Positions 640 through 51,803 of a stretch of DNA of 64,000 bases are shown piece by piece. Source of the DNA: Brevundimonas sp. 357 (GTDB lineage Bacteria > Pseudomonadota > Alphaproteobacteria > Caulobacterales > Caulobacteraceae). The stretch is taken from assembly GCF_003938605.1 (NCBI RefSeq), contig NZ_RHWX01000011.1, forward strand, positions 1 through 64,000, in the 5' to 3' direction. Made by a program: the position numbers and the translations under genes. The notes beneath the pieces are model-generated. The model did not search any database. It saw nothing but the letters and a program-made list of their open reading frames with translations, and was not told where the DNA came from. Position 1 is the stretch's first letter; the number at the start of each line of letters is the position of its first letter.

Positions 640-1308
640 TCAGACTCCGCCGATAGGCAAATCACGGCGCGCGGCGAACCACCCGCCGATGGGGCCGATG
701 GCGAGGATGCCGAACAGGAAGCCGACGGCGTGCGCTTCCCAGGCGATGCGAGCGCCGTCCGCGCCGGGCGCCAGGCCGATCAGGCCCACAATGAGATTCA
801 CAGCCATCCACGCAGCGGACGCTTTCAGAACCATCGGATGGAACAGCGGCAGGACGCGCCCATGGCCGCCCATCAACCGGGTCGCTGCGCCGATCAGGCC
901 GAAGACAGCCCCCGAGGCGCCGACCAGCGGCGCCATGCTGTTCGGGTGCACCAGCCCATAGCCCAGGGCCGCCACGGCGCCCGCCGCTATATAGAAGAGG
1001 ATAAAGACCAGCGGCCCCGGCCCGCGCTCCATCAGCCGCCCCACGGGCGCGCCGAAGGCCAGGGCGCCCACGGCGTTCATCGTCACATGGGGCCAGTTGC
1101 CATGCAGCAACATGGAGGTGAACAGCCCCGTCCATTCTCCGCGCCACAGCTCCGACGGGACGAAGGCCATGGAGAGTCCCTGATCGGGAAGCCGCTCCTG
1201 CAGATAGAAGAGCACCGGCATGGATGCTGCGATCAGCAGAGGCAGGAAGGGCGCGTTGAAGATCTTTTCGCGCGGCGGCCGCGGCGAACGGGCGTCAGAT
1301 TGGGACAT
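640..1308 (-). CDS. Rhomboid-family intramembrane serine protease
   Basis: A 222-residue polytopic membrane protein. The rhomboid signature is complete: HGNWPHVTMN at 69-78 (oxyanion-region His/Asn), GASGAVFG at 130-137 with the nucleophile Ser132, and His193 in a late membrane helix (EAHAVGF). Rhomboids cleave transmembrane substrates within the bilayer, and the substrate is unknown here. The start at 1308 has AAGGG upstream. It is the first gene left of the divergently transcribed holdfast operon, and about 120 bases between them hold the hfa promoter. Confidence 0.92.
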   Translation of the reverse strand: MSQSDARSPRPPREKIFNAPFLPLLIAASMPVLFYLQERLPDQGLSMAFVPSELWRGEWTGLFTSMLLHGNWPHVTMNAVGALAFGAPVGRLMERGPGPLVFILFYIAAGAVAALGYGLVHPNSMAPLVGASGAVFGLIGAATRLMGGHGRVLPLFHPMVLKASAAWMAVNLIVGLIGLAPGADGARIAWEAHAVGFLFGILAIGPIGGWFAARRDLPIGGV

Positions 1309-1379
1309 TCGCCCTTGATGGGGCCAGTCGCATCCGATCTCAAGACGCCGTTTTGCGCCAATACGACACTGAAACCGTA

Positions 1380-1394
1380 TGGCACGGTCATTGC
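1380..1394 (+). promoter_or_regulatory. Sigma-54 (RpoN) promoter of the hfa operon
   Basis: TGGCACGGTCATTGC matches the -24/-12 consensus TGGCACG-N4-TTGC at every position. The -12 GC lies 34 bases before the hfaA start, so transcription would begin near 1405 and leave a leader of about 20 bases. The match and spacing are visible; its use is inferred. The same window encodes FlbD, the sigma-54 activator of the flagellar cascade. Confidence 0.7.
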
Positions 1395-1427
1395 GTGAGC
1401 CGTTCCAGAAGTTCTCGGGAGCGCCTT

Positions 1428-1868
1428 ATGCCGTCTCATAGCCTGACACTCATGACCGTAGCGGCCGCCGCCGTGCTGGCGGTCCTGCCCGCCGGTTCGG
1501 CCGCCGCGCAGTCGACCGGCTCGGCCGGAGCGGGCCAGTTCCAGGCCGGCTACGGCGCCTCGCGCTACACCACCGCCCAAGCCAGCCGCGGCACGACCCG
1601 CGACGCCAACGGCAACCGCCTGGTTGTCGACGGCATCATTCAACAGAACGGCAGCGCCTACTCGCGCAGCGGCAGCAGCTCTTCGTCCAGCCACTTCAGC
1701 GGCGGCGTCGGATCGGGCAGCGGAACCAACATCGGCGGCTCCACCGCCATCGGCAACAACCTGAATGTGGTCGTCCAGGGCAACCGCAACACGGTCGTCG
1801 TCAACTCCAACCAGACCAACAACGGCGCCATCAACGCCGGCACCACCCTGAATGGGCCCCGTCCATGA
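1428..1868 (+). CDS. hfaA: Holdfast attachment protein HfaA, curli-like subunit
   Basis: A 146-residue secreted protein with a Sec signal peptide (hydrophobic stretch about residues 8-25, cleavage near AAAQS). The mature part is rich in Gly, Ser, Asn and Gln, with Asn-punctuated segments such as NNLNVVVQGNRNTVVVNSNQ that resemble curlin repeats. In Caulobacter, HfaA, HfaB and HfaD anchor the holdfast polysaccharide to the cell pole, and HfaA forms a high-molecular-weight amyloid-like complex. The start at 1428 is chosen because GGGAG precedes it and the signal peptide begins there. It overlaps the next gene by four bases (ATGA). Recognition rests on composition and operon context more than on strong sequence identity. 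Confidence 0.82.
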   Translation: MPSHSLTLMTVAAAAVLAVLPAGSAAAQSTGSAGAGQFQAGYGASRYTTAQASRGTTRDANGNRLVVDGIIQQNGSAYSRSGSSSSSSHFSGGVGSGSGTNIGGSTAIGNNLNVVVQGNRNTVVVNSNQTNNGAINAGTTLNGPRP

Positions 1869-2884
1869 ACATCACCGCCATCCGTCGCTCGCCCGTGCGC
1901 GCCTTCGGCTGCGTCGCCGCCGCCGCTGCTCTGCTGAGCGGCTGCGCCACCTCGGCCGGTCCCTCGGGCCAGTACGCCAAGCCGATCGGCAACGCGCCGG
2001 TCACGTCGAACCCGACGCCCTATTCGACCGCGCTGTATTGCCTGGCCGACTATGCGCGCCGCTACAACCTGCCCTCGCCGCGCATGGCTGTGGGGCGGAT
2101 CAGCGACTACACCGGCTCCATCTCCTCAGACGGCGGCCGCCAGATCACCCAGGGCGCGTCCCTGATGGCCAACACCGCCCTGGCGAAAGCCGGCGCCCGC
2201 ATCGTCGAGCGCTACGACACCTCGGTTTCCGAGCTGGAGCTGCGCTACGCCAACAACAAGCTGATCGGCGACGACGTGCCGAACGGCGCGCCCCAGGACG
2301 CCGCCTTCCGCCGCATCCTGGCCGGTCAGGTGCCGGGATCCGACTTCTATGTGGTCGGCGGCATCACCGAGGTGAACTACAACATCCGCTCGGGCGGCTT
2401 CGACATCGCCGGCGGCGAAGTGGGCGAGAACGGCGGCTCGGGCCTGCTGACCGGCAAGGTGTTCGTGATGAACGTCGCGATCGACCTGCGCCTGGTGCAG
2501 ACCACCACCCTCGAGGTCGTGGACGTCGTCTCTTATCAGAAGCAGATCGTCGGCCGCGAAGTGTCGGCGGGCGTCTTCGACTTCCTGAACGGCAACGTCT
2601 TCGACATCTCGGCCGGCACCAGCGGCCTGGAGCCGGTCCAGCTGGCGGTCCGCGCCCTGGTCGAACGCGCCACGGTCGAGTTCATGGCCAACCTCTACGG
2701 CGCCCCCGGCCCGGAAATCTGCCTCAACCCCGCCAATGACCCGCTGGGCGACAGCCCCGTTGGCGCCACCGGCGGCTACTATCCTGCTTACGCAAACACG
2801 GACACGAACAATGGCCAAACTCGCGCCGACCCGTCTCGCTGGCACGATCGCCGCGACAGCGCTGTGCGTAGCGGCGGCCGCTGA
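1865..2884 (+). CDS. hfaB: Holdfast attachment lipoprotein HfaB (CsgG-like secretion pore)
   Basis: A 339-residue lipoprotein: the signal peptide ends in the lipobox LSGC with Cys27, and a CsgG-type fold follows (conserved PR-AVGRISDYTG, QGAS.M, ALAKAG.RIVER and DFYVVGGITE segments). CsgG proteins form nonameric outer-membrane channels that export curli, and HfaB does the same job for HfaA and HfaD at the holdfast site. It is translationally coupled to hfaA through a four-base overlap, and its 3' end overlaps hfaD by 74 bases. That long overlap is unusual, because the hfaD start is set by its signal peptide and falls inside the hfaB tail. Confidence 0.9.
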   Translation: MNITAIRRSPVRAFGCVAAAAALLSGCATSAGPSGQYAKPIGNAPVTSNPTPYSTALYCLADYARRYNLPSPRMAVGRISDYTGSISSDGGRQITQGASLMANTALAKAGARIVERYDTSVSELELRYANNKLIGDDVPNGAPQDAAFRRILAGQVPGSDFYVVGGITEVNYNIRSGGFDIAGGEVGENGGSGLLTGKVFVMNVAIDLRLVQTTTLEVVDVVSYQKQIVGREVSAGVFDFLNGNVFDISAGTSGLEPVQLAVRALVERATVEFMANLYGAPGPEICLNPANDPLGDSPVGATGGYYPAYANTDTNNGQTRADPSRWHDRRDSAVRSGGR

Positions 2885-4064
2885 GGCTTCCGCCCAGGAT
2901 CGCGGTTTGGTCCTGAATGAACAGCTCAACCTGGGCGACGTCATCAGCGGTCAACGCCTGAACGTCGTCAATGTCAGCGACAACGTCGCCGTGTCGAACG
3001 CCGCCATGGGCAACGCCCTGTCCGGCGGCGCCGACGGCCGCGCCGCCGACATCCGCTCGACCCAGGACATGCAGGGCGCCGCCGTGGCGGACACCTCCCT
3101 GACCCTGCGCGGCGAGACGGGCTATGTGAACAGCGTGACCCAGGCGCGCGGCAACTATCTGGCCGGGACCGCGGTCAACACGGGCATCGACGTCGACGCA
3201 GGCCAGAACCTGAACGGCAACGTCACGGCGCGCAGCCAGATCGTGGAGACCGGCGCTCGCCTGAACTACGGCGGCCATGTCTCGGCCGACGCCATCGGCA
3301 ACACCGTCGCCCTGGGCGCCAGCGGCACGGGCGAGCAACGCGGCGCCGTCACGGGCCGCACCGATCAGAACTCGACCGGCGAAATCTACGCCGAGAACGA
3401 GGCCCGCTTCACCTACGCCCCGGCGCCGGCCGTCTTCAGCAGCCAGGCATCGGCCAACGCCGTACAGGCGACCTCGACGCCGAACTCGCACCAGAACCTG
3501 GCGGTCAGCCAGAACGCCTCGGGCGCAGGCGTCACCGCCTGGACGGGCGTGTGGGCAGGCAACGCCTGGGACATAGCCGCGCGCAGCCGCGCCGCCTCCA
3601 ACCAGGCCGCCTTCTATAATCAAGGCGGTTCGCTGGTCGTGGACGTGGATCAGCAGAACTCGGCGGAGGTGCTGTCGCGCACCGAACTCAGCTCCTATGA
3701 CTTCGGCGCCGCCCATTCGACGGCCGAGGCCGTGGGCAATGAAGTCCATGCCGGCAACAACGACATCTATGTCAGCATCGACAACACCCAGATGAACACC
3801 GGCGGCGTCACCGCCAGCGCCGGCTTCACGGGTCAGAACGGCTATGACGCCTACGTCGGGGCCAATGCGGCGGGCAACGCCGTCACCGGCTTCGCCTGCT
3901 CGACCTGCGGCGGCGACCTGAACGTCCGCAACAGCCAGACCAACATGGGCGACGTGCGGGCGACGGCGACGACCAACGTCAACGGCTGGGGCCGCAACGT
4001 CGTCGCGGGCGCCAACGCCGTCGGCAACACGGCGAGCTTCTACGTCACCAATCCGGGAAATTAA
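2811..4064 (+). CDS. hfaD: Holdfast anchor adhesin HfaD
   Basis: A 417-residue secreted protein. The start at 2811 gives a clean signal peptide (MAKLAPTRLAGTIAATALCV, cleavage near ASAQ). The mature chain is Asn/Ala/Gly/Ser/Thr-rich, with recurring short units of the form NAVGN or DAIGNTV, each followed by Gln-Asn-rich strands, as expected for a beta-solenoid adhesin. HfaD is the surface component that, with HfaA, binds the holdfast polysaccharide. It is the third gene of the operon and overlaps hfaB in another frame. Two Cys close together (CSTCGG) near residue 365 may form a disulphide. hfaC is not visible nearby. Confidence 0.82.
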   Translation: MAKLAPTRLAGTIAATALCVAAAAEASAQDRGLVLNEQLNLGDVISGQRLNVVNVSDNVAVSNAAMGNALSGGADGRAADIRSTQDMQGAAVADTSLTLRGETGYVNSVTQARGNYLAGTAVNTGIDVDAGQNLNGNVTARSQIVETGARLNYGGHVSADAIGNTVALGASGTGEQRGAVTGRTDQNSTGEIYAENEARFTYAPAPAVFSSQASANAVQATSTPNSHQNLAVSQNASGAGVTAWTGVWAGNAWDIAARSRAASNQAAFYNQGGSLVVDVDQQNSAEVLSRTELSSYDFGAAHSTAEAVGNEVHAGNNDIYVSIDNTQMNTGGVTASAGFTGQNGYDAYVGANAAGNAVTGFACSTCGGDLNVRNSQTNMGDVRATATTNVNGWGRNVVAGANAVGNTASFYVTNPGN

Positions 4065-4106
4065 CTTTCGGTAACTTGAGATAGTCAAGTTCGTTTGTCA
4101 CCGTGA

Positions 4107-4139
4107 ACAGGCGCGGAGCTGAACAAGCTTCGCGCCTGT
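4107..4139 (+). terminator. Hairpin ending the hfa operon
   Basis: The nine-base arms ACAGGCGCG and CGCGCCTGT flank an inner AGCT/AGCT pairing, giving a stem of about 14 bp. It lies 43 bases after the hfaD stop and is followed only by CTTA, so the U-tract is weak. Confidence 0.6.
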
Positions 4140-4202
4140 CTTACGTGCAGGGCCGCAATCAGTCCCGGGGGCCGCCCGCTCGCACGTCGCGGAGACTACC
4201 GA

Positions 4203-7082
4203 ATGCGATCCCCTCGCCGCCTGCTCCTGCTTGCCGCGTCCAGCCTCGCCCTGATGGGTGGAGCCGCGCTTCCCGCCGTCGCCCTGACCCAGCCGCCAGC
4301 CGCCGCGACGCAGGACGCCCAACCCTCCAGCCCCTGGGCCCAGGCGGCCAGCGACATTCCGGCCGATGCGGCCGTACGCTTCGGCGTCCTGCCCAACGGC
4401 ATGCGCTACGCCATCATGAAGAACGCCACCCCGCCCGGTCAGGCGTCCCTGCGCCTGCGGATCGCGGCCGGTTCGCTGATGGAGAACGAGGACCAGCTGG
4501 GTCTGGCCCACTTCATGGAGCATATGGCCTTCAACGGCACGACCAATGTGCCCGAGAACGAACTGCTGCGGATTCTGGAACGTCTGGGCCTGGCCTTCGG
4601 CGCCGACACCAACGCCTTCACCAGCTTCGACCAGACCGCCTATACGCTGGAGTTGCCGCGCACCAACGACGAGACCGTCGACACCTCGCTGCGCATCATG
4701 CGCGAACAGGTCTCCGAAGCCCTGATGAAAGCCGAGGACATCGACGCCGAGCGCGGCGTGATCGAGGGTGAAGAGCGCCTGCGCAACACCCCGGCCCTGC
4801 GCTCGCTGAAGGCGCAGATCGCCCTGCTGGCGCCGGGCCAGCGCCTGTCGAACCGCCTGCCGATCGGCGACCTCAGCATCATCCGCAGCGCCCCGCGCGA
4901 ACGCTTCGTCGAGTTCTACGAAGCCTATTACCGCCCCGAGCGCGCCACCATGATCGCGGTCGGCGACTTCGACGTCGATCAGATGGAAGCCAAGATCAAG
5001 GCGACCTTCTCGGACTGGACGCCCAAGGCCGCCGACGGTCCCGAGCCCGATCTGGGACAGGTGGCCCCGCGCCAGCCCGAGACCCGCATCCTGGTCGAGC
5101 CGGGCGTGCAGTCCTCGGTCCAGCTGAACTGGATCCGCAACCCGGACCTTGATCCCGACACGGCTTCGGAACGTCGCGACGCCCTGCTGCAGAACCTGGG
5201 CATGGCCGTGCTGAACCGCCGCCTGGGCGAACTGGCCCGGGCCGACAACCCGCCCTTCATCGGCGCCGGCGGCGGCCAGGCGACCCTGTTCAAGACCCTG
5301 GACCTCGGCAGCGTCTCGGCCGCCTTCAATCCCGGCGGCATCAAGCGCGCGCTGGAAACCATCGAGCAGGAACAGCGCCGCCTGGTGCAGTTCGGCGTCT
5401 CGCAGGTCGAACTGGATCGCGAGATCGCCAACACGCGCACGGCGCTGGAAAACGCCGTTCAGGCGGCCGCGACGCGCAGCACCCCGGCCCTGGCCAACGC
5501 CCTGCTGGGCGCCGCCAACGACGACAAGGTCTTCTCGGCCCCGTCCGCCAACCTCGCCCTGTTCGAGGCCGCAGTGAAGGATCTCAAGGCCGAGCAGGTC
5601 AGCGCCGAGGTCAAGCGCGCCTTTGAAGGTCAGGGCCCGCTTGCCCTGGTCATCACGCCCGAACCGATCGAGGGCGGCGAAGCGGGCGTCACCGCCCTGC
5701 TGGAAGCCAGCCGCGCCACTCCCGTGACCGCTCCGGCCGTCCAGGCGGAACTGGCATGGCCCTACGCTGACTTCGGCGCCGCCGCCACGCCGGTCTCGAC
5801 CACCGAAGTCGCCGCCGTCGGCGCCACGGTCGTCACCTTCCCCAACGGCGTGCGCCTGACCGTCAAGCCGACGACCTTCAAGGATCAGCAGATCCTGATA
5901 TCGGTCCGCACCGGCATCGGCGAAATGGGTCTGCCGACCGACCGCTTCACCTCCGAGTCTCTCGCCCCGATGGTCTTCACCGCGGGCGGTCTGGGCAAGC
6001 TGACGGCGGACGAACTGAACCGCGTCCTGACCGGCAAGATCTACGGCGCGGGCTTCGCCATCGACGGCGACGCCTATCAGCTGTCGGGCGCCACCCGCCC
6101 GGCCGATCTGCAACTGCAGATGCAGGTGCTGGCCGCCTATCTGACCGATCCGGGCCTGCGCCCGGCGCCGTTCGAGCAGATCAAGGCCGTCCTGCCGCAG
6201 TTCATGGCCCAGCAGATGGCCACGCCCAGCGGCGCCTTCAGCCTTCAGGCCAGCGGCCTGCTGGCCAGCGGCGACAAGCGCGAATCCATGGCCTCGCTCG
6301 AAGAAATCGCCGCCTTCACCCTGGATGAACTGAAGCAGGGCGTGGTTCAGGGCCTGGCCTCCGGCCCGATCGACATCGTCATGGTCGGCGACGTCAAGGT
6401 GGAGGACGCGGTCGCCTCGGTCGCCTCGACCTTCGCCGCCCTGCCCGCTCGCGCCCCGGCCGCCCAGCCGATGGCCGGTTCGGATCAGCGTCGCTTCCCG
6501 GCGCCGACGGTCCAGCCGATCCGCCTGACCCACGCCGGTCCGGCCGAGCAGGGCTTGGCCTACATCGCCTGGCCGACCACCGATGCGGTCAATGATCGCA
6601 CCGAGTCGCGCCGGGCCGCCATCCTGGCCGAGGTGCTGAAGCTGCGCGTCCTGGACGAAATCCGCGAGAAGCAGGCCCTGGCCTATTCGCCCAGCGTCCG
6701 TTCCTCGGCGTCCGACGTGTTCGAGGGCTACGGCTCCATCTCGATCACGGCGGACACGGCTCCGGACAAGTTCGGCGCCTTCTTCACCGCCGTCGACGCC
6801 ATCATCGCCGACCTGCGCGACAAGCCCGTCAGCGAGGACGAGCTGAACCGCGCCCGCCTGCCGGTGATCGAGTCCCTGCGTCGCAGCCAGGCCGGCAACG
6901 AATACTGGCTGGGCCAGCTGGAGGATCTGGCCGCCAAGCCCGCCTCCCTGGAGCAGATCCAGACGCACATCAGCGATCTGGAATCCTTCACCGCCGCCGA
7001 CATCCAGGCGGCTGCGCGTCAGTATCTGAAGCCCGATACGGCGTGGAAGGCCGAGGTCGTCTCGGCCAACGCCGCGCAGTAA
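4203..7082 (+). CDS. M16-family zinc metallopeptidase (PqqL-like, double-domain)
   Basis: A 959-residue exported protease with an N-terminal signal peptide (about residues 1-28). The inverted zinc motif HFMEH is at 103-107, inside LGLAHFMEHMAFNGT, and the downstream third-ligand glutamate region (RGVIEGEER) is intact. The length and two homologous halves, the second without the motif, match the periplasmic PqqL/insulinase group, which degrades peptides in a clamshell chamber. The start at 4203 has GGAG eight bases upstream. It stands alone: the hfa terminator precedes it and a strong terminator follows. Its substrate is unknown. Confidence 0.92.
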   Translation: MRSPRRLLLLAASSLALMGGAALPAVALTQPPAAATQDAQPSSPWAQAASDIPADAAVRFGVLPNGMRYAIMKNATPPGQASLRLRIAAGSLMENEDQLGLAHFMEHMAFNGTTNVPENELLRILERLGLAFGADTNAFTSFDQTAYTLELPRTNDETVDTSLRIMREQVSEALMKAEDIDAERGVIEGEERLRNTPALRSLKAQIALLAPGQRLSNRLPIGDLSIIRSAPRERFVEFYEAYYRPERATMIAVGDFDVDQMEAKIKATFSDWTPKAADGPEPDLGQVAPRQPETRILVEPGVQSSVQLNWIRNPDLDPDTASERRDALLQNLGMAVLNRRLGELARADNPPFIGAGGGQATLFKTLDLGSVSAAFNPGGIKRALETIEQEQRRLVQFGVSQVELDREIANTRTALENAVQAAATRSTPALANALLGAANDDKVFSAPSANLALFEAAVKDLKAEQVSAEVKRAFEGQGPLALVITPEPIEGGEAGVTALLEASRATPVTAPAVQAELAWPYADFGAAATPVSTTEVAAVGATVVTFPNGVRLTVKPTTFKDQQILISVRTGIGEMGLPTDRFTSESLAPMVFTAGGLGKLTADELNRVLTGKIYGAGFAIDGDAYQLSGATRPADLQLQMQVLAAYLTDPGLRPAPFEQIKAVLPQFMAQQMATPSGAFSLQASGLLASGDKRESMASLEEIAAFTLDELKQGVVQGLASGPIDIVMVGDVKVEDAVASVASTFAALPARAPAAQPMAGSDQRRFPAPTVQPIRLTHAGPAEQGLAYIAWPTTDAVNDRTESRRAAILAEVLKLRVLDEIREKQALAYSPSVRSSASDVFEGYGSISITADTAPDKFGAFFTAVDAIIADLRDKPVSEDELNRARLPVIESLRRSQAGNEYWLGQLEDLAAKPASLEQIQTHISDLESFTAADIQAAARQYLKPDTAWKAEVVSANAAQ

Positions 7083-43491: not shown

Positions 43492-45591
43492 CTAGACTGA
43501 TCCCACCGTCCTGAGGCGGGCCTTGGGATGAATCTCATTTTGGCTCATCACCACCGTCTGACCGCGGAAGCGTTCGATGATGGAGCGGACGTAGGGGCGG
43601 ACCTGCGGCCCGGTCAGCAGGACCGGGTTCTCGCCCGTCATGGCGGCGCGCTCGAACACGTCGCGGACAGCCCGGATGAAGTCCTGAAGCTTGCTCGGCG
43701 CCATGGCCAGTTGCTTGTCCTCGCCGGGACCGATCAGGCTTTCGGCGAAGGCCTGCTCCCACTCGGGCGACAGGGTGACGATGGGCAGGGCGCCGTCGTC
43801 GGCCTTGTGCTGCCAGCACAGCTGACGCGCCAGACGGCCGCGCACGTGCTCGACCAGGGTGGCGACGCTGGTGGTGTGCGGCGCCGCCTCGGCCAGGCCT
43901 TCCAGGATGGCGGGCAGGTCGCGGATCGACACCTTCTCGCGCAGCAGGGCCTGAAGCACGCGCTGAAGCGTGGTCACGGTGACGACCGAAGGGATCAGCT
44001 CCTCGACCAGTTTCTGCTCCTCGCCCTTCAGCTCCTTCAGCAGCTTCTGCACCTCGGCGTAGGAGAGCAGCTCGGCCATGTTCTCCTTGAGGATTTCGGT
44101 CAGGTGCGTCGTCAGGACCGTCGAGGGGTCGACGATGGTGTAGCCGCGGAAGGTCGCCTCTTCGCGCAGGGACTCGTCGATCCAGGTGGCGGGCAGGCCG
44201 AAGGCGGGCTCACGCGTATGCTCGCCGGGCAGCTCGACCTGACGGCCCGCCGGGTCCATCGCCATCAGGGAGCCGAGGCGCACCTCGCCCGAACCGGCGT
44301 CCATCTCCTTGATGCGGATGGCGTAGCCCTGATTGGACAGGCGCATGTTGTCGAGGATGCGCACGCTGGGCATGACGAAGCCGTACTCCTGGGCCAGCGA
44401 ACGGCGCAGGGCGCGGATCTGGTCCGTCAGGCGGCGGCCTTCCAGGTCGTTGATCAGGGCCAGCAGGGCGTAGCCCAGTTCGATCTTGACCTCATCGATG
44501 GTCAGGGCGGTGGAGATCGGCTCCTCCACGTCCTCCTTCGGTTTCAGATTCACCGGCTCGGCAGGCGGCGGCTTCAGCCGGTCACGGCCCAGCTTCCACG
44601 CCATGAAGCCCGTCCCCAGCGCCAGCGCCGCGAAGGGCAGCAACGGCATCCCCGGAATCAGGCCGATCAGGCCCGCCGTGCCCGACACCACGCCCAGCGA
44701 CACCGGATTGCTGGCCAGCTGGGCGACGAAGGCCTTGTCGGCCGAACCCTCGACCCCCGCCTTGGTCACCAGGAAGCCCGCAGCCACCGACACGATGATG
44801 GCCGGGATCTGCGTCACCAGGCCGTCGCCGACGGTCAGCTGGACATAGGTGTTGGCCGCCTCCATGGCGGGCATCCCGTGCTGCACCACGCCGATCAGCA
44901 GGCCGCCGATGGCGTTGATGAAGGTGATGATCAGGCCCGCAACGGCGTCGCCGCGCACGAATTTGGAGGCGCCGTCCATGGCCCCGAAGAAGGTCGATTC
45001 CTGCTCCAGTTCCTTGCGGCGCAGCTTGGCCTGATCCTCGTTGATCAGGCCCGCGGACAGATCGGCGTCGATGGCCATCTGCTTGCCTGGCATGGAGTCC
45101 AGGGTGAAGCGGGCCGAGACCTCGGCGATGCGGGTCGCGCCCTTGGTGATGACCACGAAGTTCACCACCAGCAGGATGGCGAAGATGATCACCCCGATGA
45201 TGAAGTTGCCGCCCATCATCAGCTCGCCGAAGGCCTGGATGATCTTGCCGGCGCTGTCGTGCCCTTCCTGGCCGTTGCTGAGGATCAGCCGCGTCGAGGC
45301 CAGGTTCAGCCCCAGCCGGTACAGCGTCGAGACCAGAAGCACCGTGGGGAAGATGGCGAAGTCCAGCGGCCGCTTCATCATCACGGCCGTCATCAGGATC
45401 AGCACGCTGGACACCAGCGAGATCGCCAGCAGCAGATCCAGAAGCATCTTCGGGATCGGCACGATCAGCAGCATGATGACGGCGATGACGCCGACCGCCA
45501 TGCCGACTTCGCCACGCAACAGCCAGCCGAGCGCATCGCGCCCCGTGGGGCGCGCCAGGCCGTCCTTCATCAGGAGCGGCGCATCAGCCAT
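43492..45591 (-). CDS. flhA: Flagellar export gate protein FlhA
   Basis: A 699-residue protein. The N-terminal half has about eight membrane helices and the FHIPEP signature (YRLGLNLASTRLIL); the C-terminal half is the cytoplasmic substrate- and chaperone-docking domain. FlhA forms the nonameric proton-driven gate of the flagellar type III export apparatus. Length is usual. In Caulobacter it normally directly follows flbD; here a beta-lactamase gene separates them. No clear ribosome-binding site precedes the assigned ATG. Confidence 0.97.
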   Translation of the reverse strand: MADAPLLMKDGLARPTGRDALGWLLRGEVGMAVGVIAVIMLLIVPIPKMLLDLLLAISLVSSVLILMTAVMMKRPLDFAIFPTVLLVSTLYRLGLNLASTRLILSNGQEGHDSAGKIIQAFGELMMGGNFIIGVIIFAILLVVNFVVITKGATRIAEVSARFTLDSMPGKQMAIDADLSAGLINEDQAKLRRKELEQESTFFGAMDGASKFVRGDAVAGLIITFINAIGGLLIGVVQHGMPAMEAANTYVQLTVGDGLVTQIPAIIVSVAAGFLVTKAGVEGSADKAFVAQLASNPVSLGVVSGTAGLIGLIPGMPLLPFAALALGTGFMAWKLGRDRLKPPPAEPVNLKPKEDVEEPISTALTIDEVKIELGYALLALINDLEGRRLTDQIRALRRSLAQEYGFVMPSVRILDNMRLSNQGYAIRIKEMDAGSGEVRLGSLMAMDPAGRQVELPGEHTREPAFGLPATWIDESLREEATFRGYTIVDPSTVLTTHLTEILKENMAELLSYAEVQKLLKELKGEEQKLVEELIPSVVTVTTLQRVLQALLREKVSIRDLPAILEGLAEAAPHTTSVATLVEHVRGRLARQLCWQHKADDGALPIVTLSPEWEQAFAESLIGPGEDKQLAMAPSKLQDFIRAVRDVFERAAMTGENPVLLTGPQVRPYVRSIIERFRGQTVVMSQNEIHPKARLRTVGSV

Positions 45592-45638: not shown

Positions 45639-46538
45639 TCAGCCATGCCCCAGCGCCTTGAGCGCCTGACGGGTCGCGTCGGCGATCACCGCTTCGCGCT
45701 GGGCGTTGGTCGAATCCTTCGTGGCGTGGAAATAGACGGCGATGGCGATAGGCGCGCTGTTCGGCGGCAGGATCAGGCCGATGTCGTTGACGGGGCCGCC
45801 GCCGCCCGTCCCCGTCTTGTGCGCCACGGTCCAACCGGCAGGGGCGCCCGCCTTGATCCGTCCCGGCCCCGACGGGCTATCGACCAGCCAGCGCATCAGC
45901 AGGGCTTTGGATTCCGGGCTCAAAGGCGTGTCGGCGTCGACCAGCAGACGCTGGATGTTCCGAACCGACTGATCGGGGGTGATGGTGTCCTTGTCGCCTT
46001 CCGCGACGTTCAGTTCCGGCTCCAACCTGTCGACACGAGTGCTGTCGTCGCCGATGCCGCGATAGAAGGCGCGCAAGGCGTCCAACCCGCCCATCTCGCG
46101 GATCAGGATGTTGGCGGCGGGGTTGTCGCTGACCTCGACCGTGCCCTTCATCAACTGCTCGATAGTCAGGGTCGAGCCGACCGCCGGTTCCGTGACCGGA
46201 GCGTGGAATATCATGTCGGCCTGCGTCACCGGGATCGCCCGATCCAGCCGTTCCTGCCCTGCCTGGACGCGCAGCAGGATCGCGGCGGCCAGATACATCT
46301 TGAAGGTCGAGCAATAGACGAAGCGCTCGTCGCCGCGCCAGGCTGCGCGCAAGCCCTCGGTCGCGACGGAGACGCCCAGGCGGCCGCCGTGACGCGCCTC
46401 CAGCGCCGACAGGTCGAGATCGAGCACGATGGGGTCGGGCGTCGCCTGCTTCACGGCGCGCGCACACGCCCCCAGCGTCATTCCTCCCAGCGCCAGGGCG
46501 CCCGCGCCGATCATCAAGGCGCGACGGTTCGTGTGCAT
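45639..46538 (-). CDS. Class A beta-lactamase
   Basis: A 299-residue exported enzyme with a twin-Arg/lipoprotein-like signal (NRRALMIGAGALALGG, lipobox LGAC with Cys25). Catalytic motifs are complete: Ser77-TF-Lys80 (nucleophile), Ser137-Asp-Asn139, Glu173-PELN (omega loop) and Lys241-Thr-Gly243. It hydrolyses beta-lactam rings. The start at 46538 has GAGGAG ten bases upstream. An in-frame ATG overlapping the flbD stop would add 12 residues. It stands between two flagellar genes, an unusual place. Confidence 0.93.
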   Translation of the reverse strand: MHTNRRALMIGAGALALGGMTLGACARAVKQATPDPIVLDLDLSALEARHGGRLGVSVATEGLRAAWRGDERFVYCSTFKMYLAAAILLRVQAGQERLDRAIPVTQADMIFHAPVTEPAVGSTLTIEQLMKGTVEVSDNPAANILIREMGGLDALRAFYRGIGDDSTRVDRLEPELNVAEGDKDTITPDQSVRNIQRLLVDADTPLSPESKALLMRWLVDSPSGPGRIKAGAPAGWTVAHKTGTGGGGPVNDIGLILPPNSAPIAIAVYFHATKDSTNAQREAVIADATRQALKALGHG

Positions 46539-46573
46539 CAGTGGCTCCTCATCCCAGAAATGGTTCATGTGCA

Positions 46574-47989
46574 TCAGTGACTTCCTATTCCATAAGCCGC
46601 CGCAACCCCTGACTGGGGCGCCGGGATCGGCGCGCCCTGGTCGGCGTATTCGTTCAGCTTGTTGCGCAGGGTGCGGATGGAGATGCCCAGGATGGTCGCC
46701 GCGTGGGTGCGGTTGCCCAGGCAATGGCTGAGGGTGTCCAGGATCAGGGTCTTCTCCATCTCGGCCACGGTCTGGCCGACGAAGCTGCGGGTGACGGCGT
46801 CGGCGACCTGGGCCGCCTGACCGGCCACGCCGGCGTCATAGGTCGAGGCGGCAGGCGCGGCCTGAGCCCCCTCCCCGCCCAGCAGCGGGCGGCCGTCCGG
46901 CAGGCGGATGGCGTCGACGTCGATCTCGGCCCCCGCCGCCAGCAGGACGGCGCGGTGCATGGCGTTTTCCAGCTCGCGCACATTGCCGGGCCAGCGGTGG
47001 GCGACCAGGGCGCGCCTGGCCTCCGGCCCGATGGCGCGCGGCGGCACGCCGTTGGCGGCGGCGTATTTCCTGACGAAGTGGTCGGCCAGCACGGCGATGT
47101 CGCCGGGGCGTTCGCGCAAGGACGGCAGGCGCAGGTTCACGACGTTGAGGCGATACAGCAGGTCTTCGCGGAACGTCCCCTCGGCCACCGCCTTGGCCAG
47201 GTCGCGGTTCGAGGTGGCGATGATGCGGATGTTGACGGGCACCGGCTTGGAGCCGCCGACGCGGTCGATCACCCGCTCCTGAATGGCGCGCAGCAGCTTG
47301 GCCTGCAGCCGGGCGTCCATCTCGCTGATCTCGTCCAGCAGAAGCGTGCCGCCGTCAGCCTCCTCGAACTTGCCGATCCGACGCGCCACGGCGCCGGTGA
47401 AGGCGCCCTTCTCATGGCCGAACAGCTCGGATTCCAGCAGGTTGTCCGGGATGGCGGCGCAGTTGACGCTGATGAAGGCCTTGTCCGCCCGACGCGAATG
47501 CGTGTGCAGATAGCGCGCCATCACCTCCTTGCCGACGCCGCTCTCGCCGGTGATCAGGATGGAGGCTTCCGAACGCGCCACCTGATCGGCCAGCTGAATG
47601 ACCGACTTCATCGCCGGATCGGCCGAGATCATCGGCCGCTCGTCGTCCGCCACGGCGGACAGGACGGCGGCGATCAGGTCCGCCTCGGGCGGCAGGGGGA
47701 TGAACTCCTTGGCCCCGGCGCGGATGGCGTCGGCCGCCTCGCGCGCGTCGGCGTCGACGCCGCAGGCCACGACCGGCACATGGATGCGCTCGGCGTCGTT
47801 GGCGGCGATCAGGGCGGCGATGTCGATGCGGTAGTCGACCATCAGCAGGTCGGCGCCCTGCCCCCGGCGCAGCTGCTCGGTCGCCTGATCGGCGCGCTCG
47901 ACGTGCTGGACCTTGGCGCCGTGCGCCATGGCCATTTTCACCGCCGTCGCCAGTTGGCCGCTTAAACGACCCACCACCAGAAGACGCAT
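46574..47989 (-). CDS. flbD: Sigma-54-dependent flagellar activator FlbD
   Basis: A 471-residue transcription activator. The N-terminal receiver is degenerate: its usual acidic pair reads VVGRL. An AAA+ domain with Walker A GESGVGKE (148-155) and the sigma-54-contacting loop GAFTGA (195-200) follows, then a Fis-type helix-turn-helix ([18 protein letters not shown]). In Caulobacter FlbD activates late flagellar promoters and represses fliF at ftr sites. It is downstream of fliN in the fliF operon. The sigma-54 promoter before hfaA is a possible additional target. Confidence 0.95.
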
Positions 47990-49038: not shown

Positions 49039-50076
49039 TCAGTAGATCAACTCGTCGTCGCCGCCCTGGCCGGCCAGCATGATGTCGCCGCGCGCCGCCA
49101 GATCCTTGGCCACCTGGACCATGGCCATCTGGGCGTTGTCGACGTCCTTGAGGCGGACAGGCCCCATGGAATCCATATCCTCGCGCATGATCTTCGAGGC
49201 GCGCTCGGACATGTTGGAGAAGAACATTTCGCGCAGGGGGTCCGAGGCGCCCTTCAGCGCCAGCCCCAGCTGGTCCTTCTCGACCGCGCGCAGCAGGGTC
49301 TGCACCCCGCCCGGATCGAGGCGCGACAGATCCTCGAACACGAACATCAGGGCGCGGATACGCTCGGCCGCGTCGCGGTTGCGTTCCTCCAGCGCGCCGA
49401 TGAAGCGGGCTTCGGTCTGGCGGTCGAAACTGTTGAAGATGTCGGCCATAAGCTCATGGCTGTCGCGCTTGGACGTACGCGCCAGGTTGGACATGAACTC
49501 GCTGCGCAGGGTCTGTTCGATCTTGTCGAGAATGTCGCGCTGCACCGGCTCCATGCGCAGCATGCGCTGGACGCACTCCAGGGCGAAGTCCTCGGGCAGG
49601 GCCGTCAGCACGCGCGAGGCGTGATCCGGCTTGATCTTCGACAGGACGACCGCGACCGTCTGCGGGTATTCGTTCTTCAGATAGTTGGCGAGGACGGCCT
49701 CGTTCACATTGCCGAGCTTGTCCCACATGGTGCGGCCCGCCGGACCGCGGATCTCCTCCATCAGGGCCTCGACGCGATCGCCGGGCATGAAGGAGGCCAG
49801 CAGGCGCTGCGTCTGCTCATAGGAGCCCATCAGCGAGCCGGCCCCGCCGATGCCGGAGACGAATTCGACCAGCACCTCTTCGACGACGGCGGCGGTGACG
49901 GTGCCCAGCCCCGCCATGGCCTGAGAGACCTCCTTGATCTCTTCATCGTCGAGCTGCTGCCACAGGGCGGTGTGCTCTTCGCCCAGAGACAGCAGAACGA
50001 CGGCCGCCTTTTCAGGCCCCGTCAGCTTCTTGGCGTCGTCGACCGCCGCGCCCTTTGACACCAGCCGCGCCGCCAT
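49039..50076 (-). CDS. fliG: Flagellar motor switch protein FliG
   Basis: A 345-residue protein with the three FliG domains: an N-terminal FliF-binding part ([25 protein letters not shown]), a middle domain with [21 protein letters not shown], and a C-terminal torque helix with [34 protein letters not shown]. The charged residues that face the stator are present. Its ATG overlaps the fliF stop by one base (TGATG). Confidence 0.97.
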
Positions 50077-51713
50077 CAGCTTTCATGCATCCACGAGCGC
50101 AGGATCGCCGTGGATTCCTCTGGGTGGCTGTCGACGAAATCGGCGACCTTCTTGATGGAGGAGGCCTTCACCTGGCCCTCGATGCGAGCGATGTCGATGC
50201 GCTGCTCCATGTCGCTGGGGCCTGCGAGCATGGGCGCGCCGCCCGGCAGGGTTCCGCCGACGATCTGGGTGTCCAGGGCGGTTACGGGAATGCCGCCGGC
50301 GCCGGCCAGGGCGGGCGCGCCGCCAGAACCCGTCGCCGCTTTCAGCAGCGGACGCAGGACGAAGAAGACCAGCACGAAGCCCGTGACAGCCAGGATCAGC
50401 AGCTCGACCCCGCGCATGATGTCATTCTTGTCGAAGGCGAACATCGAGGAGCCTTCCTCGGCGCCCGGCGCAGCCGACGGCTCGCGGTTGAAGCGGACGT
50501 TGACGACCTCCAGCTTGTCGCCGCGCGTCTCGTCGATGCCGACGGCGGCGGCGACCAGGGCCTTGATCTGCTGCACTTCCTCGGCCGTGCGGGCGGCGTA
50601 GGCGGGCTCGCCCTTGCCGTCGGCGGCGGGTGTGTATTTGCCGTCGACCGCGACCGAGACCGACAGCTTCTTGACCTCGCCCGGCTCCTTCACCGTCGTG
50701 GTGGTGGTGTTGGAGATTTCGTAGTTGGTCGTCTCGGTGTTTTCCGAGTTGGTGGAGCCGATCGGCGTGGTGTTCGGGGCCTCGCCGCCGGGAATGTTGT
50801 TGGTGGCGGTGACGCCGCCGTCCTGCTGGCCGGTCGTGTCTTGCGACTGGCTGCCGTTGGTCGAGGTCGAGCGAACGACCTGCCCGTCCGGATCGAACTT
50901 CTGCTCCTGGGTGGTCGAGCGGCTGTGGTCGATGTCGGCCGTCACCTGCACGCGAGCGGCGCCCGCGCCGACGACGCCCTCGACAATGTCCTTGATGCGG
51001 GCCTGCATCTGGGCCTCGGTCGAGGCCTTGGACGCCTCGGCGGTGGCCGAGGTGAAGCCCGTGTCCTCAGACCCGGCCGCCAGGGTGCGGTTGGCCTGGT
51101 CCGTCACCGTGACCTTGTCCGGCTTCAGGTTCGGCACGGACGAGGCGACGACGTTGCGGATGGCCCGCACCTGATCGGCCGACAGGTCGCGGCCCGACAG
51201 ACCCACCACCACGGCGGCGGTCGGGTCGATGGCGGCGGCCTGGAACATCTCACGACGCGGCATGGTGATGTGGACGCGGGCGGAAGAGATGCCGCGCATC
51301 GACATGATGGTGCGCGCCAGTTCGCCCTGCAGGGCGCGCTGTTCGTTCAGGTTCTGCTGGAACTCGGTCTGGCCCAGCACCGACTGGTTGTCGAATATCT
51401 CGTAGCCGACGCTGCCCGAGGTCACGAGCCCCTTGCCCGCCAGCATCAGGCGCGCCGTGCCCACCTCGTCGCGGCTGACGAAGATGGTCGAGCCGTCGCC
51501 CTTGGAGGAATATTTGATGCCCGCCTGGTCCAGGGCGGCGCTGATTTCGGAGGCTTCGCGCAGGTCGAGGTTGGAATAGAGCAAGGCGTCCGGCGCCTGG
51601 CCCACGCGCAGCATGACGGCGACCAGCACGGCGGCCACGCCCGCAGCCACGCCCAGGATGGCGGCCAGGCGTCCGATGCCGAACCTTTTCAAAGCTTCCG
51701 TGAAGCCGCCCAC
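50076..51713 (-). CDS. fliF: Flagellar MS-ring protein FliF
   Basis: A 545-residue membrane protein. Two membrane helices (near residues 15-40 and 440-460) flank a large periplasmic region of ring-building motifs ([27 protein letters not shown]-type and [12 protein letters not shown] segments). A cytoplasmic tail that binds FliG ends in [16 protein letters not shown]. The start is taken as the GTG at 51713, which has AGGGG nine bases upstream and gives the usual N-terminus ([11 protein letters not shown]); a GTG six codons upstream is the alternative. A CtrA-like box lies about 80 bases ahead. First gene of the flagellar operon. Confidence 0.95.
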
Positions 51714-51789
51714 GCGCCATCGCCCCTGCACACGCGGGACGAACCGAACCCGCTAGGCAGAAACTGCCGCCTGGATGGTAAATGCGGCG

Positions 51790-51803
51790 TTAAGAGGCGT
51801 TAA
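51790..51803. promoter_or_regulatory. CtrA-box-like motif upstream of fliF
   Basis: TTAAGAGGCGTTAA, that is TTAA-N6-TTAA, one base shorter than the usual TTAA-N7-TTAA of Caulobacter CtrA. It sits about 80 bases upstream of the fliF start, where the class II fliF promoter is expected. Read on the minus strand it is TTAACGCCTCTTAAC. Confidence 0.5.

Follow-up and report, generated by a model that had tools for sequence, protein, structure and literature searches.

The holdfast-anchor genes hfaA, hfaB and hfaD raise the question of which RNA polymerase transcribes them and which activator sets the time at which the anchor is made. We addressed it in a stretch of 64,000 nucleotides (the window) from Brevundimonas sp. 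357 (contig NZ_RHWX01000011.1). The HfaB of the window is 99% identical to those of B. diminuta ATCC 11568 and 3F5N, and the genome is thus of the Brevundimonas diminuta type.

The hfa operon and its sigma-54 box

The first gene, hfaA (1428-1868, plus strand), encodes the holdfast anchoring protein HfaA of 146 aa (NCBIfam NF037934, 136.6 bits, cut-off 50) and is followed on the same strand by hfaB (1865-2884), encoding a CsgG-like holdfast anchor protein (NF037935, 422.6 bits, cut-off 300; Pfam CsgG), and by hfaD (2811-4064), encoding another holdfast anchor protein (NF037936, 447.6 bits, cut-off 100), for which the start codon was chosen from the sequence. The start of hfaB overlaps the stop of hfaA (ATGA), while hfaB and hfaD share 74 nt (2811-2884) in different frames. 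Since the three genes overlap, they fit a single operon. A divergent gene for a rhomboid protease (640-1308, minus strand; Pfam PF01694) is separated from hfaA by an intergenic stretch of 119 nt. In related genomes (L385, L386 and L387) an rRNA operon was seen upstream of hfa, with the 16S gene about 2-3 kb away in G204 and G184, and with 23S and 5S genes in G029; this neighbourhood is the probable reason why many draft genomes have hfa at 1-3 kb from a contig end.

The sequence TGGCACGGTCATTGC at 1380-1394 (plus strand) matches all 11 specified bases of the sigma-54 consensus TGGCACG-N4-TTGC, with the -24 element at 1380-1385, the -12 element at 1391-1394 and a GG/GC spacing of 10 nt. The ATG of hfaA at 1428 lies 48 nt 3' of the box, and a GGGAG is found at 1417-1421. 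If 1394 is taken as -12, transcription would be predicted to start at about 1406, giving a leader of about 22 nt. Exact matches to the box are rare, with one in the window against a shuffle mean of 0.07 (6 of 100 shuffles had at least one). Across the whole genome exact TGGCAC-N5-TTGC occurs at three sites, namely before hfaA, before flgF (L002) and inside a 387-codon frame close to a contig end. Sites with at most one mismatch numbered 75 genome-wide, fewer than the 169 for a reversed control pattern, and a weak match alone is therefore meaningless, so that we place weight only on the perfect site together with its conservation. RpoN is encoded once in the genome. A simple scan of 1150-4250 did not find an E. 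coli-type sigma-70 promoter, a result with little bearing on promoters of the Caulobacter type, and the inverted repeats within 1200-1440 are short and mostly inside the rhomboid gene.

Conservation across the Caulobacteraceae

HfaA was present in 204 of the 299 Caulobacteraceae genomes searched. The family survey comprised 165 loci with an aligned hfaA, taken among the matches listed of these 204 genomes, and 159 distinct upstream regions were scored, leaving out one that was too short (L038), four duplicates and one containing N (L191). When GG and GC were both required, the best site among the matches listed had no mismatch in 74 upstreams, one in 16, two in 18 and three in 4, with more or no site in 47, whereas the same scoring of 7,950 shuffles gave 1, 6, 95, 341 and 7,507, respectively. 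A box with at most two mismatches was thus found in 108/159 upstreams versus 1.3% of shuffles, and a perfect one in 74/159 versus 0.01%. If GG and GC were not required, the counts rose to 117/159 at two mismatches and, in the genus g1, to 24/67 at one, these counts including boxes without the GC of the -12 element. By genus, and again among the matches listed, perfect boxes and boxes with at most one mismatch numbered 43 and 45 of 46 in g32, 11 and 15 of 21 in g16, 2 and 2 of 2 in g13, and 18 and 22 of 67 in g1, the genus of the window. In g24 they numbered 0 and 6 of 21, with 14 more at two mismatches that were mostly of a TGGCAT type, and the single loci of g15 and g19 had no box with at most one mismatch.

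It is this conservation in relatives that settles that the box is real. Perfect consensus, position, RpoN and deep conservation together support a real and conserved sigma-54 promoter before hfaA, the use of which we infer from these features. The sequence-only reading had recognized a perfect sigma-54 promoter here at ideal distance from the operon, and on both points it was right, the box being where a promoter of hfaA would be expected (the range 1380-1868 given there begins at the box and not at the gene). It had also proposed that the motif be sought in relatives, and the motif is indeed kept across the family, although a large part of Brevundimonas is without it.

Several observations accompany the survey. 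The genus g32 appears to be Caulobacter, since in one of its genomes (G184) boxes of this kind stand, like in Caulobacter, at genes that we take to be flagellin, fliK, flgF, rcdA-type and spmX-type genes. In three g32 genomes (L285, L286 and L302) a perfect TGGCACG-N4-TTGC lies 71 nt before an rcdA-like gene, presumably rcdA itself, and this box is possibly a feedback on TacA turnover. The sequence TGGCACACTTCTTGC is conserved in three g32 genomes (L291, L295 and L299). A second, diverged HfaA-like locus is present in several Brevundimonas genomes (G002, G008, G012, G014 and G020). Finally, hfa loci of the Brevundimonas type were found on contigs titled Bordetella, Chrysosporum bergii and Rhodobacteraceae (L209, L269 and L273), which most likely reflects binning or contamination.

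FlbD or TacA as the activator

The genome has six matches to PF00158, three of them strong, which are FlbD, a second response regulator with GAFTGA and a protein without GAFTGA that we took for NtrX. An NtrC-type protein was not recognized among the three strong matches of this draft genome. The flbD gene (46574-47989, minus strand; NF050807, 803.5 bits, cut-off 750; GAFTGA present) belongs to the window, where a class A beta-lactamase gene (45639-46724, minus strand; NF033103, 255.7 bits, cut-off 200) sits within the flagellar cluster, between flbD and an flhA-like gene (43492-45591).

The sequence-only reading had FlbD drive hfaA, so that the anchor would be made together with late flagellar parts. 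The presence of flbD in the same window agrees with this, as does the near identity of the hfaA box TGGCACGGTCATTGC with the flgF box TGGCACGGTCGTTGC. It is from flgF that we recognized the FlbD-type palindrome, CGGCA-N5-TGCCG, which is exact there in the genome of the window. In all 12 Brevundimonas genomes tested, the sigma-54 box and the palindrome of flgF were 70 bp apart, the palindrome always being 5'; the box was perfect in 11 of these promoters and had one mismatch in the other, while the palindrome was exact in 8 and had one mismatch in 4. Six exact palindromes occur in the genome of the window, three of them at flagellar genes, which by their sequence we take to be flgF, flgB and flgI/fliX. 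Since the exact palindrome is rarer genome-wide than its reversed control (12 versus 108 strand hits), its value comes from its place at flagellar promoters. In three flgF promoters of g32 it was not seen at up to two mismatches, and the pattern therefore marks flgF of Brevundimonas rather than every FlbD site.

At hfaA of the window, the best match to this palindrome has 3 mismatches of 10, and over 162 hfaA upstreams (near-duplicates included) only one had a palindrome with at most one mismatch, compared with 3.3% of shuffles. The sole match in the window with at most one mismatch is AGGCAGAAACTGCCG (51755-51769, plus strand; one mismatch), and it stands not before hfaA but 24 nt before fliF (50076-51731, minus strand). 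Since 8.7 such matches are expected by chance, it is the place before fliF and not the match itself that is notable. A TTAA-N6-TTAA box (51790-51803) adjoins this palindrome.

Physiology points the same way. According to passages of PMC7885107, disrupted flagellar assembly leads to higher holdfast adhesion in C. crescentus, which is opposite to what would be predicted for an anchor operon switched on by FlbD. The assignment to FlbD, and with it the tie of anchoring to late flagellar assembly, is thus not supported, the palindrome being present at 12/12 Brevundimonas flgF promoters and not above chance at hfaA, and FlbD is unlikely to act at this promoter.

We provisionally named the remaining GAFTGA response regulator TacA by elimination; none of the NCBIfam equivalogs shown for it passes its cut-off. 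In C. crescentus, four such proteins are described in a passage of PMC10274813, of which only FlbD and TacA have GAFTGA. Since FlbD is unlikely at hfaA and two GAFTGA activators were found, TacA is left by elimination, and on balance we favour it as the likelier activator of hfaA. A link of hfaA to the swarmer-to-stalked transition through TacA is plausible. The TacA orthologue is 71-100% identical in 80/80 genomes tested, whether the sigma-54 box is kept or lost, and co-occurrence therefore names no activator.

The gene spmX, presumably a TacA target, has a weaker sigma-54 box in the genome of the window (CGGAACGAGGCTTGC, two mismatches). A TacA element common to hfaA and spmX or rcdA was sought by local alignment, and 0/9 alignments were convincing: for the best spmX alignment 12/150 shuffles were as good, and for rcdA 47 to 133 of 150. 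The hfaA and spmX control regions of six genomes had nothing in common beyond chance. When the control regions of hfaA and flgF were aligned as a control, 2/5 alignments reached 1-2 of 150, one of them via a GC-rich stretch, and we draw no conclusion from these. A TTRACC..GAGAC element seen by eye at hfaA and spmX of g32 was dropped as unproven.

In C. crescentus, as passages of PMC7885107 describe, the hyperadhesive phenotype of flagellar mutants is suppressed when shkA is deleted. The same screen also yielded shpA, tacA and rpoN, and its authors take pleD to act by way of the tacA programme. For B. diminuta, a passage of PMC5590869 reports that orthologues of ShkA and StaR are lacking and that TacA and ShpA are found. 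Since ShkA and StaR would be missing, the input to TacA would differ from that in C. crescentus, where staR is described as part of the TacA-sigma-54 stalk programme (in a passage of PMC10274813).

Apparent loss of the box in Brevundimonas and a CtrA-like box

Within Brevundimonas we analysed a named set of 77 of 80 loci, leaving out L206 (short), L237 (no hfaA found) and L265 (masked) and excluding by its position a site at -11 in L266. The sigma-54 box was kept in 27/77 loci at one mismatch or fewer and in 34/77 at two or fewer. In the other 43/77 loci no site retains both GG and GC at two mismatches or fewer, so the operon can evidently do without the box. Some degraded boxes, such as TGGCACGCGGACCGC and TGGCACGCAGGGTCC, resemble intermediate stages of decay. 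In several loci, among them L257 and L260 (the latter titled B. subvibrioides), TTGC is replaced by CCGC or TCGC with GG and GC retained, and such boxes may still work.

A second box is common in these upstream regions. TCAA/GCAA-N7-TTAA, at a score of at least 6.5 of 8, was found in 58/68 distinct Brevundimonas hfaA upstreams versus 4.9% of shuffles, and where a sigma-54 box is present as well (GG and GC kept, two mismatches or fewer) it begins exactly 31 nt 5' of that box in 14/17 upstreams (22/26 when GG and GC were not required). The four-base ends of this CtrA-like box persist while its middle changes. A 20-base form, TCAAGCGCTTCTTAATAACC, searched with at most three mismatches, has a single occurrence in each of the genomes G029 and G204, both times at hfaA, and was not found at this threshold in the genome of the window. 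In a passage of PMC11264516, CtrA-bound promoters are described as having TTAA-N7-TTAA, with the variants CTAA- and AAAA-N7-TTAA.

At a threshold of one mismatch for the sigma-54 box, 17 of the 77 loci have both boxes, 10 the sigma-54 box only, 49 the CtrA-like box only and 1 neither; at two mismatches the numbers are 23, 11, 43 and 0. The 68 distinct Brevundimonas upstreams, with GG and GC required, gave 14, 9, 44 and 1 at one mismatch and 17, 10, 41 and 0 at two. On a tree of HfaB, a quick tree with 20/77 inner branches starred, 9-10 changes are required for the sigma-54 state and 4 for the CtrA-like box. Since all five rows of the outgroup were entered as carriers of the sigma-54 box (three with a perfect box, one with one mismatch and one with two), repeated loss is the simplest reading, and the box at hfaA seems to have been lost repeatedly in Brevundimonas, with some regain possible. 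Only 4 independent pairs fall on starred branches; we therefore regard the exclusion between sigma-54 and CtrA-like boxes as a pattern and claim no statistical link.

Of the twelve flgF promoters read, nine belong to genomes that have lost the hfaA box (four or more mismatches, or GG/GC missing), and the flgF box is kept in 9/9 of these. It is also kept in G260, where the hfaA box is weakened to two mismatches. G204, with its hfaA box gone, keeps a box with two mismatches before spmX (CGGCGCGGCCCTTGC). Since flgF in 9/9 genomes and spmX in the one genome read keep their box, the loss at hfaA looks specific.

The B. diminuta clade of the window has the sigma-54 box only, its CtrA-like box being TCAA-N7-TTTT or worse, at a chance-level score. 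In the window itself TCAAGACGCCGTTTT (1340-1354, plus strand), 40 nt 5' of the -24 box, scores 5.5 of 8 and is either a remnant of a CtrA-like box or a chance match; since about 42% of shuffles score at least 5.5, it is no evidence of a CtrA site in the window. It could nevertheless be argued that here the sigma-54 box is the relic and that hfaA depends on a different promoter, such as one of the CtrA/sigma-73 kind presumed for the box-less Brevundimonas. The prevalence of the CtrA-like box in the genus and the persistence of the operon where the sigma-54 box is gone would agree with this, but in the window it is the CtrA-like box that is degenerate and the sigma-54 box that is perfect, as it also is in the B. 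diminuta-clade loci L203-L205 and L207-L209, and we consider a relic quite improbable. Least probable by far is a chance occurrence of the sigma-54 match, since, although one-mismatch versions are not enriched across the genome, no perfect box arose in 20,000 dinucleotide-shuffled versions of the 115 nt upstream of hfaA (39 had one mismatch) and, outside Brevundimonas, most of the family has the box at hfaA despite diverged surrounding sequence.

A model for hfaA transcription

Our preferred reading, to which we give a probability of about 0.62, is a sigma-54 promoter at 1380-1394 with TacA as its likelier partner. What we observe is a rare and deeply conserved box, RpoN, two GAFTGA activators and the lack of an FlbD-type palindrome at hfaA, and from this we infer the use of the promoter, its start site and the part of TacA. 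We propose that sigma-54 RNA polymerase would transcribe hfaA-hfaB-hfaD from 1380-1394, with an RNA start near 1406, and that the promoter, like other sigma-54 promoters, would need an ATP-burning enhancer-binding activator. If this activator is TacA, synthesis of the anchor would be timed with stalk and holdfast development rather than by the late flagellar checkpoint.

The ancestral promoter in Brevundimonas probably combined CtrA-like and sigma-54 boxes, with several lineages having kept only the CtrA-like box and the B. diminuta clade only the sigma-54 box. More tentatively, control of hfaA may have been rewired by splitting this two-input promoter, in which the CtrA-like box lies 31 nt (about three helical turns) 5' of the sigma-54 box, such that some lineages came under CtrA alone and the B. 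diminuta clade under sigma-54 and TacA only. If this were true, closely related species would use different cell-cycle regulators to time the anchoring of their holdfast.

The promoter itself is of a known kind; what is new is that it is conserved across the family, that it has no FlbD site and that in Brevundimonas it was apparently lost repeatedly and specifically at this gene. It would provide a direct, testable connection between sigma-54 and the anchoring of the holdfast, and it speaks against FlbD. In the open literature searched we found no paper joining hfaA, hfaB and TacA, or hfaA and sigma-54. An earlier description of a sigma-54 promoter at C. crescentus hfaA may nevertheless exist, since older reports (Janakiraman and Brun 1999; Kurtz and Smith 1992; Biondi 2006) reportedly deal with hfaA transcription and with TacA. 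In passages of PMC7885107, rpoN and tacA of C. crescentus are linked to adhesion without hfaA being named. A passage of PMC7987155 states that in B. subvibrioides no holdfast gene was found under GcrA and that the timing and regulation of such structures are now in question. The hfaA promoters found in nature, some with both inputs, some with sigma-54 only and some with the CtrA-like box only, form a series that offers a way to answer that question of timing.

Comparison with known systems

Compared with CtrA-bound promoters, most Brevundimonas hfaA upstreams are alike in carrying a candidate TCAA/GCAA-N7-TTAA, but the box of the window is degenerate, and placing a CtrA box 31 nt 5' of a sigma-54 box departs from the usual -35 arrangement. 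With the FlbD/ftr flagellar promoters (flgF, flgB, flgI/fliX and fliF), hfaA shares the core box, through flgF, whereas the palindrome is theirs. The C. crescentus fliF promoter presumably includes a CtrA site in its ftr4/CtrA arrangement. The fliF promoter of the window (51755-51803) resembles that arrangement, as far as ftr4 is described in a passage of PMC3930126.

The RpoN motif of C. crescentus is given in a passage of PMC4287350 as GGCNC-N4-CTTGC, from 33 cell-cycle starts that fall into two classes, swarmer-to-stalk and flagellar. The hfaA box differs from it in having A and not C before TTGC, and its start site and dependence on rpoN are predicted; it is alike in its GG and GC 10 nt apart, in the full TGGCACG-N4-TTGC and in a genome that encodes RpoN and GAFTGA activators. 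As to the TacA-sigma-54 stalk programme, hfaA differs in that no TacA element in common was found and in that B. diminuta is reported, in the passage of PMC5590869, to be without ShkA and StaR. It is nevertheless like the genes of that programme in being a non-flagellar developmental gene with a sigma-54 box.
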